A stretch of 64,000 bases of DNA. It comes from Pegethrix bostrychoides GSE-TBD4-15B. GTDB taxonomy: Bacteria; Cyanobacteriota; Cyanobacteriia; Elainellales; Elainellaceae. Below, piece by piece: positions 9,669-15,729 of this stretch (positions are counted from its first letter, which is position 1; each line of letters begins with the position of its first letter). Below the pieces are notes generated by a model. The model searched no databases and had not been told where the DNA came from. It saw nothing but the letters and a program-made list of their open reading frames with translations. Made by a program: the position numbers and the translations under genes. The stretch is from assembly GCA_019359155.1 (NCBI GenBank), contig JAHHHV010000085.1:1-64000 (forward strand), written 5' to 3'.

Positions 9669-9776
9669 ATTCTAGTTTCGCTTGAGCACGGCGAGGATTG
9701 ACGTGACGAAAGACTTGTTTGCTAATTGAGAGATCTGAAATCTGACTGTAATAGCCAGAGAGCCGAGCTACTTCAA

Positions 9777-11054
9777 CTAGACTGCTTCAGGCTCATCTCG
9801 AACCTTGAAGTACCAGTACAAGTTTGCGACAGCCATATTTGACATCTGATTAAGGTTTGAGGCTGTCAACGCCTTATGACCAGCTTGAGTTGCCTGCTGA
9901 CTAATGTAAGTTTCTGGTTCAGATCGCAGCTCAGGCTTTAGTAGAAATCGCAGCTGATCTTGTAGAGAATCAGGATGAGATTTTGACTGTAGATCTTCGT
10001 ACTGTGTTTGTTCAGAAGGTATCTCTAGATGTTCTAGCACTGAACTGGCGTCTGCTTTTGAATGGCTAAAATCAGCACTTTGCAGAAGCTGAAGTTCAGA
10101 TTGAGGAAGCAGTCGCAGCCAATCAACCTGATTTTGCCACATGCTCAAAACTGCCAAATCCTGGTCGTGAACTCGGGTAATCTCAGGGAATAGGAGATTT
10201 AATTCTTGTTCAGATTCACAGCGGTCAACAATAGCCAAAGCATCGGTAAGAATTCTCTCTTGAAGTTGGGCAAGACAATGACTTAGTGCCTCCGGCTCAT
10301 TTTGTAGTTGGTAAATTAGAGCGATTGTCTGTTCAATTACCCAAGCACATTCCAGCCGCCGGAGTTGTCCTGCTGCACAAGTTTCTTCGAGCAGGTGAGG
10401 GTTGCGATAATCAGCTAAAGCTTCCATCAAAGTTTGTTTTGCGTTTGCCAAATCGGTATTTCTGATGCTCAAGTCATCGCACAGCATTGCCACTTTAAGC
10501 AGTCTCGTAGCCTCTAAAAATTTTCCATAAGCTTGAATGAGTATGAGGCGATGCTGCTCGAATTTAATGTCTTTAGCAACTTCTTCAATACGTCGAATGA
10601 TCTCAGCGCCTTGACTACTAAAAGCTTTCTTCAAGTCAAAAAAGCCTTCTTTAACTTCCAGTCTCAGATGCTTCACGTCTTCTCTCAGCTTTAGAATTTG
10701 CCGTAAGCTGACTGCTGAGATGGCCAAATTTGCGGCCACACCCACACCAATCACAGCCGTAGTTGCCTGGAGAACGCTCAGACTTGTCTGGAGTGATTGA
10801 ATTCCGGCCTGGGTTGCTTGGAAGCCTTGATTCACCTGATACATTTGCGCTCCATTCATGCCAAGCTGAACCGGAGTCGTGATCGGATTGAAGGGAACAC
10901 CGTTATTCCTCACAATTCCTACAGCATTACCAACAAATTGCCCGGTGGCGCTGTCTCTAGCCAAGCCTAATGGGACACCAGCGGCATTAAAGACCTGTGC
11001 ATACTTACCAGCAGCTAGACCAGCCTCGACCAAAGGCGGAAATTGGAACAGCAT
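9777..11054 (-). CDS. Uncharacterised membrane-associated coiled-coil protein, divergent from a dynamin-like GTPase
   Basis: 425 residues, family not recognised. Residues 1-80 are a proline/glycine-rich head (GVPFNPITTPVQLG). About 85-120 is a hydrophobic stretch (TAVIGVGVAANLAISAV) that could span or insert in a membrane. About 120-165 is a charged coiled coil (LREDVKHLRLEVKEGFFDLK). The rest is a long helical domain, leucine- and glutamine-rich, with no catalytic motif I can see. The gene is AT-richer than its core neighbours and shares a 150-bp divergent promoter region with the TerB-dynamin gene, so joint regulation is likely. A membrane partner or effector of the GTPase is a reasonable guess, not a demonstrated role. 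Confidence 0.75.
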   Translation of the reverse strand: MLFQFPPLVEAGLAAGKYAQVFNAAGVPLGLARDSATGQFVGNAVGIVRNNGVPFNPITTPVQLGMNGAQMYQVNQGFQATQAGIQSLQTSLSVLQATTAVIGVGVAANLAISAVSLRQILKLREDVKHLRLEVKEGFFDLKKAFSSQGAEIIRRIEEVAKDIKFEQHRLILIQAYGKFLEATRLLKVAMLCDDLSIRNTDLANAKQTLMEALADYRNPHLLEETCAAGQLRRLECAWVIEQTIALIYQLQNEPEALSHCLAQLQERILTDALAIVDRCESEQELNLLFPEITRVHDQDLAVLSMWQNQVDWLRLLPQSELQLLQSADFSHSKADASSVLEHLEIPSEQTQYEDLQSKSHPDSLQDQLRFLLKPELRSEPETYISQQATQAGHKALTASNLNQMSNMAVANLYWYFKVRDEPEAV

Positions 11055-11164
11055 ATTTTCACATGATAGGCAAAGTAATTACCTCTAGCTTAAATTAGAT
11101 ACTTCATGAAGATAACCGTATTTTCTCGGTGAAGGTTGTGAACTTCAGCAATGCTCTGGGTACA

Positions 11165-11188
11165 TTGAACATAATAAATGTCTATTAT
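11165..11188 (+). promoter_or_regulatory. AT-rich dyad in the divergent promoter region
   Basis: ataata (11171-11176), six bases, tattat (11183-11188) is an inverted repeat centred between the two divergent genes. TATTAT is a plausible -10 for the dynamin gene, whose ATG is 17 bp on. The upstream TTGAAC is only 12 bp from it, too close for a normal -35. Confidence 0.3.
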
Positions 11189-11204
11189 TTCTCTCCCAGC
11201 TTAA

Positions 11205-13751
11205 ATGGATACCTCCCTAATCAGTGCTAATACGGTCGAACTCCTATCGCACCTCACGGGGCAAACCTTGCGAAAAGAAGACCTCACGCCTCCTATTGTC
11301 TTTCTCTCGCCGCTTATTACGGTGCTGACAGGTGTAATGTTTGCCGATAAGACCATCACTGATGAAGAAAAACAGCAATGGCAACAGACCATCAAGAAAT
11401 TCCTACCCTCAGACAAAAATGTGGTGGCGTTCGCGCAAGCGCTAAGTCGAGGAGTTCGACAGCAGAAGATTTACATCAAGCGAGATGAGTTACTCAAGCT
11501 GACACAACCCCTGTCTGTAGCGGAACGTTTACTGCTGCTAGGTCTGGGATACGAAATGTCGGCAGCAGATGGGGAGGTAAGTGCAATTGAGAAGCAGTAT
11601 TTACAGCTGGTTGCCAAGCACTTAGAAATTGATATTAATCATCTAAGGGTCTTGGAAGCTGGATTCTCTCGACAAGCGGCTGATCTGGCTGCACTCTGCG
11701 AAGTGCGGTCACTTCTTGACCCGGCTCGCTTTCATGACCTAGATACAATGTTCGTCAATGCTGCGAATAGTTTGTTGGAGACATTACCTACTCAGCCGGA
11801 GGAGGTTGCCATTCAACAGAACCATGCTCCATCTTATGACCAATTAAGAGAATTTCAGAAACGCCAAAACCAACTCGTTAACTTGTTTCATCAACTCTAT
11901 CAAATTATTCAAACTTGCGTTGAAAATGGGCTTTTAGGCAATCATTTAATAGATGGAGTCAGCGCAGCCTCCGAAAAATTGCAGTCTCAGCGCTTTCGAG
12001 TAGCAGTAATCGGAGAGTTTAGTCAAGGAAAATCGACATTATTGAACGCTTTGCTTGGGGAAGAAATTCAACCCACCAGAGTAATTCCCTGTAGTGGAGC
12101 AGTGACAATTCTTAAATATGGCAGTAAGAAACGAGTCATCTGCCGTTACAAAGACGGGCGAGAGGAAGAAATTTCGACTCAGAGCTACAAAGACAAAGCT
12201 GCGATTCCTCGAGATGTTGCTCAAGGAAAGCGTGCAGAGAGCTTGGCTGATTCTGAAATTGACGAAATCATCTTTGAACATCCTGATTTGGCTCTATGTC
12301 AAAGCGGTGTAGAAATTGTTGATTCACCTGGTCTAAACGAACATCCTGATAGAACGGCTATCACGCAAAAACTCCTTAAAGACACAGATGCTGCCATTTT
12401 TCTCACTAATGCGACTCGCTTGCTTCCAGAAAAAGAAAAAGAATTGATTCAAGATATTAAAAGGAATCTGACTGGGGATAGTACAGCCCCTGCTGAGAAT
12501 CTTTTTATTGTCGTCAATTTCTTCGATCTCATTGACGAGGAAGAAGACCGCCATGATGTTGTTCAAAGGCTTGAGGGATTTGTCAAAGACGAAAATCTGC
12601 TAGATATATCGAGCAATCGTGTTCACTATATTTCTGCTAAAGCTTCATTAAAAGCCAGTTTGAAGCAAATTGAAGATGAATATCTTCAGGCATTTCGACA
12701 GTTTACACAGGCTATCGAAAACTTCTTGACGTTAGAGCGAGGTGCCTTGAAGATCGCTAAATCAAGTAAAAGTATCGAAACAATCGTCACAAATTCCTTA
12801 AACGGTCTAGCTCAAGCTGAGTCTTTTCTAAACGACAAATTAAAATTGTCTGAGACGGATAAGCAAAGGATTTTAGATCAAATTGGTGAAGCAAGTGGAC
12901 GCGATGTTAAAATCCGCCAACTGGCAGATAGCCTGAAAAAGCAGGCATTTGCTGAAACAACTAAATCTTGGAATGCATGGATTGAGAAGCTGCCAAAGCC
13001 GCTCAAAGTTAGAAGTTATCGCTGGCGTTCTAATCATGGTCCTATTTGGAGCCAGGATCAGTTGATTCAGGATTATGTTGATCAGTTTGTTAAAGATCTT
13101 TCGGATGAGATTGATGAATGGAGTAGAACACAATTTGCTGATATAATTCTCAAGCGCAATCTTGAGGTGATGGATTCAAGTATTTACATAGAGCTGGAAG
13201 CAATTCAATCTCAATTGAGCAAAATCGACTCACAGATCAATACAGATTTAAGTAGCCAACTCAATTTTACCATCGGTGGGATCCGTGATGACTTCGCAGA
13301 TGTTGGTGGTTTTCTTGGCGGTATTGGCGTGGGTGGAGCTTTGGCAGCTGGATTGCTCCTTTTCAATCCAATCGGAATAATCGGAGTGATCCTAAGTGCA
13401 GTAGTTGCCGCGGGAGCCGGTTCATTTGCATCTGGACTGTTTAATGCAGATGGTCTGAAAGAAAAAATAAAAAATAAAGTTATCGAACTAGGATTCCAGA
13501 AAATTAATGAGTCAATGCCAAAAGCTCTTGAGAAATTAGACGAAATAATTTCTTCAACATTTGAGAGCCGTGTTCAATCTGCTAGCCGAGTTATTTCAGA
13601 AGCTATTTCACTCTCTGAGAGTCTTTTAGAACAGCAAGAAAAATCTTATGCAGCGACTTTGGAACAGCGTGAACAACAAAAAGCGTTAATTGCTCAAAAT
13701 CGTCAGCAGTTGGAGCAGGTGAGGCAAGAAGTTAAAACTCTAGTTAACTGA
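11205..13751 (+). CDS. TerB-like domain fused to a dynamin-family GTPase
   Basis: 848 residues. Residues 25-165 look like a TerB/tellurite-resistance helical domain (LGYEMSAADGEVSAIEKQYL). From about 255 comes a dynamin-like GTPase: P-loop GEFSQGKST, switch I threonine within VIPCSGAVT, DxxG as VDSPGLNE, and NFFD in the place of the N/TKxD motif. Helical stalk segments follow. A strongly hydrophobic glycine-rich hairpin (about 690-750, GGIGVGGALAAGLLLFNP) resembles the membrane paddle or TM hairpin of bacterial dynamins. The end is a glutamine-rich coiled coil. Bacterial dynamin-like proteins remodel or hold membranes, some in stress or phage response. No N-terminal signal is visible. A decayed second 3' end lies 700 bp downstream. 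Confidence 0.85.
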   Translation: MDTSLISANTVELLSHLTGQTLRKEDLTPPIVFLSPLITVLTGVMFADKTITDEEKQQWQQTIKKFLPSDKNVVAFAQALSRGVRQQKIYIKRDELLKLTQPLSVAERLLLLGLGYEMSAADGEVSAIEKQYLQLVAKHLEIDINHLRVLEAGFSRQAADLAALCEVRSLLDPARFHDLDTMFVNAANSLLETLPTQPEEVAIQQNHAPSYDQLREFQKRQNQLVNLFHQLYQIIQTCVENGLLGNHLIDGVSAASEKLQSQRFRVAVIGEFSQGKSTLLNALLGEEIQPTRVIPCSGAVTILKYGSKKRVICRYKDGREEEISTQSYKDKAAIPRDVAQGKRAESLADSEIDEIIFEHPDLALCQSGVEIVDSPGLNEHPDRTAITQKLLKDTDAAIFLTNATRLLPEKEKELIQDIKRNLTGDSTAPAENLFIVVNFFDLIDEEEDRHDVVQRLEGFVKDENLLDISSNRVHYISAKASLKASLKQIEDEYLQAFRQFTQAIENFLTLERGALKIAKSSKSIETIVTNSLNGLAQAESFLNDKLKLSETDKQRILDQIGEASGRDVKIRQLADSLKKQAFAETTKSWNAWIEKLPKPLKVRSYRWRSNHGPIWSQDQLIQDYVDQFVKDLSDEIDEWSRTQFADIILKRNLEVMDSSIYIELEAIQSQLSKIDSQINTDLSSQLNFTIGGIRDDFADVGGFLGGIGVGGALAAGLLLFNPIGIIGVILSAVVAAGAGSFASGLFNADGLKEKIKNKVIELGFQKINESMPKALEKLDEIISSTFESRVQSASRVISEAISLSESLLEQQEKSYAATLEQREQQKALIAQNRQQLEQVRQEVKTLVN

Positions 13752-13811
13752 CGAAGAAGATATAGAACTATGGAAAGTGTTTTGTGTAAACATCATCTGC
13801 CATTCAAAATA
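13708..13811. repeat. Dispersed direct repeat, copy 1 (3' end of the dynamin gene plus flank)
   Basis: About 104 bp covering the last 14 codons of the dynamin gene and about 60 bp beyond. It is repeated with high identity at 14422-14527. Shared landmarks are QLEQ..RQE..TLVN-stop and the flank aaacatcatctgccattc. Confidence 0.9.
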
Positions 13812-13831
13812 GTGCTATCTATCCCTCTTCT

Positions 13832-14089
13832 GTGACTCTCGCTGAAGAAAAACTACTGGCACAAAGAGATCACTGGTTTAGAGAAAAGTCTGGCGAGGGC
13901 AGAAAAACGACTGAGGCAAGGAAAATGATTTTTAACATCGAACAGCCACTACAAGTCAATTCAACTCTGTCTACCCTACTGGCTGAGCTGGGAGAAGAAT
14001 GCGAGAAGGTTGTCTTTCTCCTGACTCACCTCAAATTTACTAATCTAACCGACGACCCGAAAGGCGGCATTTATCCTGTAAATAAGTGA
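13832..14089 (+). CDS. Small hypothetical protein upstream of DUF4926
   Basis: Up to 85 residues from a GTG at 13832. An ATG at 13925 with aaggaa just before it would give a 54-residue protein. The second half (ECEKVVFLLTHLKFTNLTDD) reads as genuine protein; the first third is basic and low in conservation signals. It ends 10 bp before the DUF4926 gene, so the two probably form an operon. I do not recognise a family. Pairing of two short genes in an accessory island suggests a toxin-antitoxin-like module, which is inference. Confidence 0.5.
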   Translation: MTLAEEKLLAQRDHWFREKSGEGRKTTEARKMIFNIEQPLQVNSTLSTLLAELGEECEKVVFLLTHLKFTNLTDDPKGGIYPVNK

Positions 14090-14099
14090 GGGACTAATT

Positions 14100-14348
14100 A
14101 TGGCACTCAAAGAATATGACGTTGTTGCTCTAACTAATGAGACTAATGAGATTCCAGCGATCCACAAAGAGACCAATCAACCGATTTTGCTTAGAAATGG
14201 GCAGGTTGGTACAGTGCTGATGAACTTCGACAATCAGGCTTACTTGGTTGATTTTGCCAATGTTCAAGGCGAAACTTACGCGATGGAAACTGTCCCTGCC
14301 ACACAACTCATGCTTCTGGCTTACGAGCCAGTTTCAGTTGAGAATTGA
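14100..14348 (+). CDS. DUF4926 domain protein
   Basis: 82 residues. The pattern YDVVALTNE, then LRNGQVGTVLMNFDNQAYLV, then ETYAMETVPATQLMLL matches DUF4926, a short beta-rich domain common in cyanobacteria and usually found beside another very small gene in toxin-antitoxin-like pairs. ATG start, 10 bp after the preceding small gene. Function is not established. A hicB remnant follows 12 bp downstream, so the locus has collected several such modules. Confidence 0.8.
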   Translation: MALKEYDVVALTNETNEIPAIHKETNQPILLRNGQVGTVLMNFDNQAYLVDFANVQGETYAMETVPATQLMLLAYEPVSVEN

Positions 14349-14360
14349 GACTTGGAGATA

Positions 14361-14420
14361 TGAAATATACAATTGTCATCCAATGATCAAATGAAGATGG
14401 CTATTTTGTTGGGTGCCTAA
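14361..14420 (+). pseudogene. hicB antitoxin remnant with an internal stop
   Basis: Reads MKYTIVIQ, stop TGA (14385-14387), then SNEDGYFVGCL. HicB antitoxins usually begin MKYTIVIQWS.ED.YFV..LPE, so the TGA replaces the tryptophan TGG. The frame ends abruptly where the dynamin 3'-end repeat starts, so only about 20 codons survive. No hicA is visible. Confidence 0.7.
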
Positions 14421-14421
14421 G

Positions 14422-14527
14422 CAATTAGAGCAGTTAAGGCAAGAAGCTGGAACCTTAGTTAACTGACAAAGCTCAAGATTAAAACTATGGGGAGTGTTTC
14501 GCGCAAACATCATCTGCCATTCAAAAT
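14422..14527 (+). pseudogene. 3' end of a second dynamin-like gene (direct repeat, copy 2)
   Basis: Encodes QLEQLRQEAGTLVN then TGA, against QLEQVRQEVKTLVN then TGA at the end of the intact dynamin gene. Homology continues about 60 bp past both stop codons. The rest of this second gene is missing and is replaced by hicB sequence. This fits deletion or recombination between tandem paralogues. Confidence 0.75.
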
Positions 14528-14700
14528 GGAACATCTAGTAAATCACGGTAGATACACAACTTGTATCCACCCGCACCATCCGGCTGAACTTGCAGCAGCA
14601 CGGGCGCAAGACTGCGATCGCGGCTATTGGAAAACTGTACCAGATCGCCAGAGCCAGCGGTCGAAAAGCTCGGATCTTGCCAAGCCTACTGAAGCCCGTC
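14522..14700 (-). pseudogene. Fragment of an unknown gene
   Basis: On the minus strand a coherent frame reads AWQDPSFSTAGSGDLVQF, then SNSRDRSLAPVLLQV, then QPDGAGGYKLCIYRD. It is preceded by an in-frame TAG and then by frame-shifted but similar-looking sequence (DNYPSAATV). The composition is that of a secreted or beta-rich protein. I cannot name the family. It has no start and no neighbours to explain it. Confidence 0.35.
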
Positions 14701-14763
14701 GCGACTGTTGCTGCGCTAGGATAGTTATCTAGCAAGACTGAATTCTTGGAAGGGATGGAACCC

Positions 14764-15169
14764 TATGGCCATTGATGACTATGACAGCGCAATCTCGCTG
14801 AGCCATCAGCTAGAGGCCAGTGGCCCTTTCAGGTACGTCCTGGCAAACCGCTGCTCAAGCTGATGCAAAACAAAGGTAAGCCGATGAGCTGAGCGCGACT
14901 ATGCGGTAGAAAAGGTGATGTACAGCGGGGATGAGGGTGGCATCGTCTGTATGCTCCAGGGTAAAGCAACAGATAAAGAGCTGATAGGCGCATCGCTGAC
15001 ACACCTAGTGATCGATCCAGGCCATCCCCTAGCCGAATCAGTCAGAGTTTATCAGCGACAGCGGACTCGTCGGTTGAGACAGCAAGAGCAGCGAGGCTTT
15101 GCCGCTCTAGTCAGCTCATCTGATTTGGCGGAGAAGAAAAGGCGAGGCGGTGGATTTGGGACTCGATGA
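14764..15169 (+). pseudogene. Frameshifted hypothetical gene
   Basis: Starts at an ATG with a reasonable upstream ggaagggatgg and reads MAIDDYDSAISLSHQLEASG, shifts frame (RPGKPLLKLMQNKGKP), then shifts again to an open frame from 14888: AERDYAVEKVMYSGDEGGIV followed by THLVIDPGHPLAESVRVYQR and a basic tail, ending at 15169. The three segments join into one plausible protein only if two frameshifts are allowed. The C-terminal part alone could still be expressed from GTG 14915 or ATG 14918. I recall similar SGDEGGI..CL proteins as conserved cyanobacterial hypotheticals, unnamed. Confidence 0.5.
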
Positions 15170-15213
15170 TGAGTGATCTATAGAGGTAGATTCATGTCTG
15201 ACAGCCTCAGAGG

Positions 15214-15345
15214 TTGTCGATCAACCCCCTCAATTCGCATCGGTTGCAGCTTGCCAAAAGCCCTAACCGCAATCGGAATACACCGCACAACCAGAACAAT
15301 AACAGCGGGTTTCGGGTTGTCTGTCTTCCCCTTGCACTCTTTAGC
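15214..15345 (+). other. DGR-like template/variable repeat or formylglycine-enzyme C-terminus remnant
   Basis: The + strand reads SPNRNRNTPHNQNNNSGF followed by RVVC. Asparagine-rich AAC/AAT runs ending GFRVV are the hallmark of template repeats, and of the C-type-lectin/formylglycine-fold variable regions, in diversity-generating retroelements. No reverse transcriptase or avd is visible nearby, and the upstream part of a target gene is absent. The frame continues to a TAG at 15469 but has no convincing start. Confidence 0.45.
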
Positions 15346-15452
15346 GCCAGAGTTAGTGAATGGGAATTTATCAAACGTGCCGCAGAAGAGTCTAGATCTG
15401 CTCCGGCGATGCTGGCATTTTGTAAAGCCAATCAGCATCCAAAAATCAAAAC

Positions 15453-15495
15453 GAGCCGGATGGTTTGGTAGGTTCGTCGAAGACTCATCCGGCTC
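15453..15495. repeat. 10-bp inverted repeat downstream of the DGR-like sequence
   Basis: gagccggatg (15453-15462) and catccggctc (15486-15495) can pair across a 23-nt loop. DGR variable regions are often followed by a hairpin, but those usually have very short loops, so the link is weak. It could equally be a remnant terminator. Confidence 0.5.
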
Positions 15496-15729
15496 ACCAG
15501 AACAGCAGATAGAAATAATTTCACATCCATAAGGGCATTTGGAGAACTGCGGGCTGGCACCATCGCTGCGGGCGTGGGAGCCAGCTTTGACATCCTGACG
15601 CACTCTCAGACTGAGAAGCAAGCAGTTTCGCTGAGCATTCCGATCCAAGATTTAGCTCAAGCGGGTAACGTTAGAATACAAGCCCCTGCTTGCTACAGCG
15701 CTCACCCACCGTTTGCCAGTCGATTGTCT

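Follow-up and report, generated by a model that had tools for sequence, protein, structure and literature searches.

A diverged repeat of a dynamin gene end, probably a partial duplication, at the edge of an AT-rich block in Pegethrix bostrychoides

In a 64,000-nucleotide stretch of the cyanobacterium Pegethrix bostrychoides GSE-TBD4-15B (assembly GCA_019359155.1, contig JAHHHV010000085.1, positions 1 to 64,000; hereafter the window), the 3' end of an intact gene for a dynamin with a TerB domain (TerB-dynamin) occurs a second time, with 609 bp between the two copies. Judged from the sequence, the second copy is probably a partial duplication of the gene end, which recombination at the border of an AT-rich block would have produced and which would since have been drifting as non-coding DNA. 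The gene and the two copies lie as follows.

11205 to 13751, plus strand: TerB-dynamin gene, 848 residues, the source of the repeat
13705 to 13810, plus strand: copy 1, comprising the last 14 codons and stop codon of the intact gene together with 59 bp of its 3' flank
14420 to 14527, plus strand: copy 2, the second occurrence of dynamin tail and flank, apparently decayed and preceded by neither a start codon nor a gene body

The last 14 codons and the stop codon of the dynamin open reading frame (13707-13751) recur at 14422-14466, and the 59 bp that follow the frame (13752-13810) recur at 14467-14527. In a whole-genome search, BLAST joined 13705-13810 to 14420-14527 at 82% identity (E 1.4e-22), and the local alignment of the two copies scored 65, whereas none of 500 dinucleotide-preserving shuffles scored above 19. 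A preliminary description, made from the sequence alone, had reported that the dynamin tail and about 60 bp of flank recur at 14422-14527, with QLEQVRQEVKTLVN and QLEQLRQEAGTLVN as the tail peptides of copy 1 and copy 2. The BLAST match and the shuffles confirmed the repeat and the peptides, with the coordinates shifted by a few bases, and the 82% identity of the alignment bears out the further statement that copy 2 derives from the dynamin 3' end and is diverged, not a fresh copy. The repeat has sharp edges at both ends; its final 23 nt are identical in the two copies, and the likeness stops at 13810 and 14527. Between the copies the tail, of 42 bases, has 9 substitutions, and the flank has 7 along with 4 gap columns. 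Within the BLAST match 15 of the 16 substitutions are transitions, and inclusion of the column 13704/14419, which lies outside the match, gives 15 transitions and 2 transversions. All seven flank substitutions (13763-13810 against 14480-14527) are transitions, numbers that are too few to build on.

Copy 2 looks unconstrained in its sequence. In an alignment of the tails of 77 relatives, all 76 that have a residue at tail position 9 carry Leu, Ile, Met or Val, where copy 2 has Ala, and the Gly of copy 2 at position 10 is found in 0 of 76. The change from Val to Leu at position 5 is unremarkable, Leu being present in 8 of 76 relatives. Copy 1 agrees with the family at all three positions. The identity between the copies is 79% in the tail (33/42) and 82% in the flank (51/62 columns), and equal divergence of codons and flank is the pattern expected from a drifting non-coding duplicate. 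Tail and flank were also compared in 270 pairs of relatives with at least 60% amino acid identity over the last 42 codons, pairs that are not independent of one another; the 80 among them with less than 60% tail identity lie outside the classes given here. Among ortholog pairs with 75-82% tail identity, none of 24 had a flank identity of at least 0.80, the maximum being 0.57 where shuffled flanks reach 0.53, and none of the 82 pairs at 60-75% tail identity had such a flank. Flanks of at least 0.80 occurred in 8 of 39 pairs at 88-95% tail identity and in 9 of 12 at 95-100%. The 3' flank itself gave no significant match to the flanks of the 77 relatives (best E 0.45), so the flank changes cannot be polarised.

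The preliminary description had taken the mixture of synonymous and non-synonymous differences as proof of a paralogue. This mixture is indecisive, given that the spread of the changes over codon positions resembles that in ortholog pairs. Nor does copy 2 look like an old functional paralogue, since its flank is as similar as its tail, a combination found in 0 of 24 ortholog pairs of equal tail divergence, and since two of its residues were seen in 0 of 76 relatives.

Several observations weigh against a partial duplication that drifted as non-coding DNA. A flank of at least 0.80 was found in 3 of the 33 ortholog pairs with 82-88% tail identity, and thus an ortholog-like origin of the tail is possible. 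Of the tail changes, 3 are at first, 2 at second and 4 at third codon positions, and the corresponding fractions in ortholog pairs of equal divergence (0.36, 0.24 and 0.40) are much like those of the copies. The dynamin proteins of the nearest relatives are about 53-54% identical over most of their length, and with no genome closer than 54% found, the duplication event is not visible before and after it took place. Relatives with large 5' or internal deletions that keep the 3' part of the dynamin gene also make the loss of a whole gene mechanically possible. A codon-position test for lost constraint was dropped, as the counts and fractions just given provide no discrimination.

The loss of a whole gene is what the preliminary description had proposed. 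Two full dynamin genes of the same family would have stood in tandem, and the second would have been deleted and overwritten by toxin-antitoxin-type fragments until its last 14 codons and flank remained. This origin could account for a diverged dynamin end beside a dynamin gene, and at seven related loci (L174-L179 and L183) large pieces of the dynamin have indeed gone while the 3' part has stayed. The remnant here would, however, amount to 14 of about 848 codons, where the shortest C-terminal piece in the relatives has 197 residues (L183), and tail and flank have drifted at one rate. A complete second gene is further not supported by the DNA around copy 2, in which nothing beyond the tail recurs: dynamin and partner gene DNA (9700-13703), compared by blastn and tblastx with 13811-14418 and 14528-15573, gave chance-level matches (best E 0.28).

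The comparison with related strains that the preliminary description had suggested also failed to reveal an intact second dynamin gene. We surveyed 80 loci from 77 genomes (L046, L088-L107, L145-L173, L174-L193 and L194-L203) and found a second dynamin C-terminus or GTPase region in none of the flanks examined, which reached at most 1.5 kb per side at 29 of the 80 loci and in some cases ended with the contig. At three loci (L180, L188 and L189) the dynamin C-terminus itself is missing at a contig end, and three strong matches, in G061 (truncated by the end of its contig), G282 and G144, lie outside the 80 loci. The dynamin searches behind these loci covered 98 relatives, 386 genomes of the phylum, 217 genomes of one family and genome contigs, with the best nine, two and four candidates per genome scored in the three genome sets respectively, so that further distant copies may be missed. 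A second dynamin in tandem was sought among the relatives, the phylum, one family, the genome contigs and the 80 loci, and none was found. Three genomes (G586, G577 and G634) do carry two matches each to the dynamin family, as the tandem origin would allow, but these sit on different contigs; in G577 and G634 the contigs are short, and their ends leave room for the two matches to be adjacent. We consider it unlikely, although a genuine competitor, that copy 2 is the relic of a complete second gene.

Tandem dynamin pairs, to which the preliminary description had appealed, do exist in cyanobacteria. They are reported, however, to belong to two different families, Tandem A and Tandem B, with substantially different sequences (PMC5827413), and most bacterial dynamin genes are described as paired in operons (PMC6104087). 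The likeness to our locus is that two dynamin sequences stand side by side. In Tandem A and Tandem B these are two full and substantially different genes, whereas here one full gene is accompanied by 14 codons at 82% DNA identity. Such pairs would not yield a tail with 82% DNA identity. Dynamin clusters at 29-33% identity to the TerB-dynamin were found in relatives, among them G086, G084 and G012. A further parallel is offered by partial gene duplications and truncated pseudogenes in bacteria, which likewise consist of a short, diverged piece of a neighbouring gene without start or body, lying amid other fragments; nothing notable sets copy 2 apart from these, and it spans 3' flank besides codons.

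The spacer between the copies, from 13810 to about 14411, is tiled by fragments of other genes, except for a short gap near 14334-14351. Its pieces are the following.

13810 to 13855, plus strand: piece resembling part of contig C18 in the same genome (46 nt, 83%, E 1.5e-5; 13821-13855 in a local search)
13851 to 14072, plus strand: last part of a small gene Y (reading ...KEITGLEKSLARAEKRLRQGK), followed by the first part of a gene Z (from about 13925, cut off near 14070)
14070 to 14089, plus strand: last codons of a DUF6883-type gene (YPVNK and stop), aligned to the intact DUF6883 gene of locus L119
14100 to 14348, plus strand: open DUF4926 gene, 82 residues (PF16277, 59.2 bits against a cut-off of 29.1)
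14352 to 14418, plus strand: hicB stub, the 5' end of a hicB-like antitoxin gene, interrupted by an in-frame TGA (87% identity to locus L117 over 47 nt; the matched DNA ends by 14411)

The Y/Z piece has 67-69% DNA identity to L114, L115 and L116. Y and Z are intact in L114 and L115, where Z is an open frame of 83 and 91 residues respectively. The DUF4926 protein has 64-71% amino acid identity to three relatives. The genes matched by the other pieces were recognised by their domains, the L119 DUF6883 gene matching PF21814 at 82.6 bits and the L117 hicB-like gene matching HicB_lk_antitox at 41.3 bits, and L119 has an intact row of DUF6883, DUF4926 and hicB-like genes. Copy 2 begins at 14420, adjoining the cut end of the hicB stub. 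Among the identified spacer pieces (Y/Z, the DUF6883 tail, DUF4926 and the hicB stub) there is no integrase.

This anatomy, in which foreign DNA is bracketed by two diverged versions of a gene end, also fits an insertion that brought its own, already diverged dynamin end, in which case one tail would be resident and the other incoming. Such an insertion could have arisen by a single crossover with a small circle, by homology-facilitated illegitimate recombination, in which one end pairs through homology and the other is joined illegitimately, or through a site-specific element that uses the gene end, as with e14. Homology-facilitated illegitimate recombination has been described in several bacteria (PMC3240628).

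The prophage e14 of Escherichia coli K-12 provides a yardstick. It sits in the 3' end of icd, and that end and the displaced icdC, one on each side of the prophage, have 153 of 165 nt in common. Foreign DNA with a diverged gene end on each side is also the arrangement at the dynamin locus. The differences are considerable. The e14 element is 15.2 kb long and has an integrase and an excisionase, whereas the dynamin spacer is just 609 bp and no integrase is among its identified pieces. The stretch shared by icd and icdC begins inside the gene, and 11 of the 12 differences in its 165 nt are at third positions; the dynamin copies have changes over all codon positions without third-position bias (4 of 9 at the third), although the dynamin tail is weakly conserved in any case. 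The longest exact match between the dynamin copies, 23 nt, closes the repeat on its 3' side, whereas the core of a gene-restoring element would be expected at the 5' end. A tail that had diverged in another lineage should moreover bring a less similar flank. We therefore rate an incoming dynamin end as distinctly improbable. By analogy, one might still imagine that the dynamin 3' end and its flank form a recurrent landing or exchange point for small toxin-antitoxin-type cassettes, each of which would leave a diverged end behind through homology and not through an integrase, an idea to which we would give very little weight.

The sharp ends of the repeat, together with a small inverted repeat (TGTTT...AAACA) that can be read by eye in the flank, could also suggest a mobile or dispersed repeat that abuts the dynamin gene by chance. 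The preliminary description had named a mobile 106-bp sequence unconnected with dynamin genes as the finding that would speak against it, and nothing of the kind appeared in the searches described next. The own genome (a draft of 5.72 Mb in 92 contigs) holds exactly two copies. In 97 relatives there were merely two matches, of 32 bases (G071) and 23 bases (G058), neither of them full and neither a dynamin end; in G071 the dynamin match sits on a different contig, and at E 0.001 no dynamin was matched in G058. Copy 1 used as query gave no match in 35 further genomes of the order, and among the matches listed for 386 genomes of the phylum (the best two candidates per genome) none outside the own genome covers either tail. 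There was no match to the repeat in a plasmid collection, and the 23-nt end has no exact match in viral contigs. One of the two copies is, besides, the coding end of an intact gene. With no dispersed copies in any of these searches, the mobile repeat was rejected, and we regard it as hardly credible.

We favour, instead, the view that only the 3' end of the dynamin gene was duplicated, and the events behind this can be sketched conditionally. Recombination would have placed the fragments of small genes (Y/Z, the DUF6883 tail, DUF4926 and the hicB stub) immediately 3' of the dynamin gene, and in the same recombination copy 2, with its 14 codons, stop codon and roughly 59 bp of flank, would have been created or left behind at the right edge of the AT-rich block that holds the dynamin and partner genes. 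The duplication would thus have been partial from the start. A one-ended or single-crossover event seems the likeliest type of recombination; a tandem duplication of the gene end followed by deletions would be equivalent in outcome. Thereafter copy 2 would have drifted as non-coding DNA with no function of its own.

Downstream of copy 2 the window contains further debris.

14751 to 15166, plus strand: broken reading frame of a hypothetical protein (72% over 417 nt to locus L124)
15209 to 15271: piece of the 3' end of a transposase-like frame
15263 to 15497: piece of a retroelement template region

The L124 counterpart of the first piece is an intact frame of 135 residues, and the match in the window crosses more than one frame. 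In the retroelement debris at 15209-15500, a stretch reading NRNRNTPHNQNNNSGFRVVC follows the transposase-like 3' end; a match to Rfam RT-14 at 15337-15495 is below threshold (33.4 bits against a gathering cut-off of 48.1). Contig C44 of the same genome has a reverse transcriptase gene, a matching template-like stretch and two genes ending in FRVVSSASRT, a locus that resembles a diversity-generating retroelement. As a whole, the roughly 1.8 kb from 13811 to 15573 are dense in truncated gene fragments around the single open DUF4926 gene.

The intact dynamin contains the dynamin GTPase domain (Pfam Dynamin_N, PF00350, 94.1 bits, cut-off 27) and a Pfam TerB domain (31.5 bits, cut-off 24.4). It resembles LeoA and LeoBC in its PADLOC matches (E 1.4e-25 and 1.1e-18), but it scores 31.1 bits against the NCBIfam LeoA/HP0731 model NF041922, far under the cut-off of 325, and its family differs in having the TerB domain and, at 71 of the 80 loci, an adjacent partner gene. 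A literature search combining dynamin, TerB and bacteria found no paper. Short proteins that match just the N-terminal, TerB-containing 180-200 residues of the dynamin at 32-45% identity are encoded at eight loci in several relatives (L023-L028, L038 and L039). In the window the partner gene lies upstream of the dynamin gene.

9777 to 11054, minus strand: partner gene, with no Pfam match and a weak match to NCBIfam ESAT6_2 (18.5 bits against a cut-off of 100)

The partner gene is present at 71 of the 80 related dynamin loci, mostly in divergent orientation and sometimes downstream. The partner gene (45.7%), the dynamin gene (42.3%) and the spacer (42.9%) form a block of low guanine-plus-cytosine content, compared with 52% in the DNA after copy 2, 55% in the neighbouring hydrolase gene and 62% in bioB. 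Further AT-rich stretches of the window are at 4-6 kb and 50-58 kb. In three genomes of the same genus (L108, L109 and L111) the hydrolase gene adjoins a large gene, with no dynamin or partner gene in the DNA examined, and in a fourth (L110) the hydrolase gene is accompanied by merely a 48-residue P-loop match. A full dynamin of the TerB-dynamin family is present in only one of the four other genomes of the genus (G001, 46% identity). The block of partner gene, dynamin gene and spacer is therefore likely to be a local acquisition, with copy 2 at its right edge.

Dynamin genes that have lost the part coding for the GTPase are found in relatives that are presumably Nostoc-like. Numbered after the G161 dynamin, the parts kept are residues 526-850 in L174, 555-851 in L176, 600-851 in L178 and 506-851 in L179, and L177 retains residues 1-58 and 560-850. 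In L175 residues 1-45 are fused to 507-850 in a single open frame of 398 codons, and in L183 residues 1-294 are fused to about 654-850 in a single open frame of 489 codons. The partner gene is retained in L174-L177 and L179. At these seven loci the GTPase part has repeatedly gone and the C-terminal half has stayed, and the genes may be either dying or working forms without a GTPase.

The repeat is thus real but would be ordinary genome debris that matters little in itself, and a tempting annotation, that of a lost dynamin pair, is corrected to gene-end debris at the edge of a block that was likely acquired. More useful than the repeat are the retention of the partner gene at 71 of 80 loci and that of the C-terminal half without the GTPase domain.

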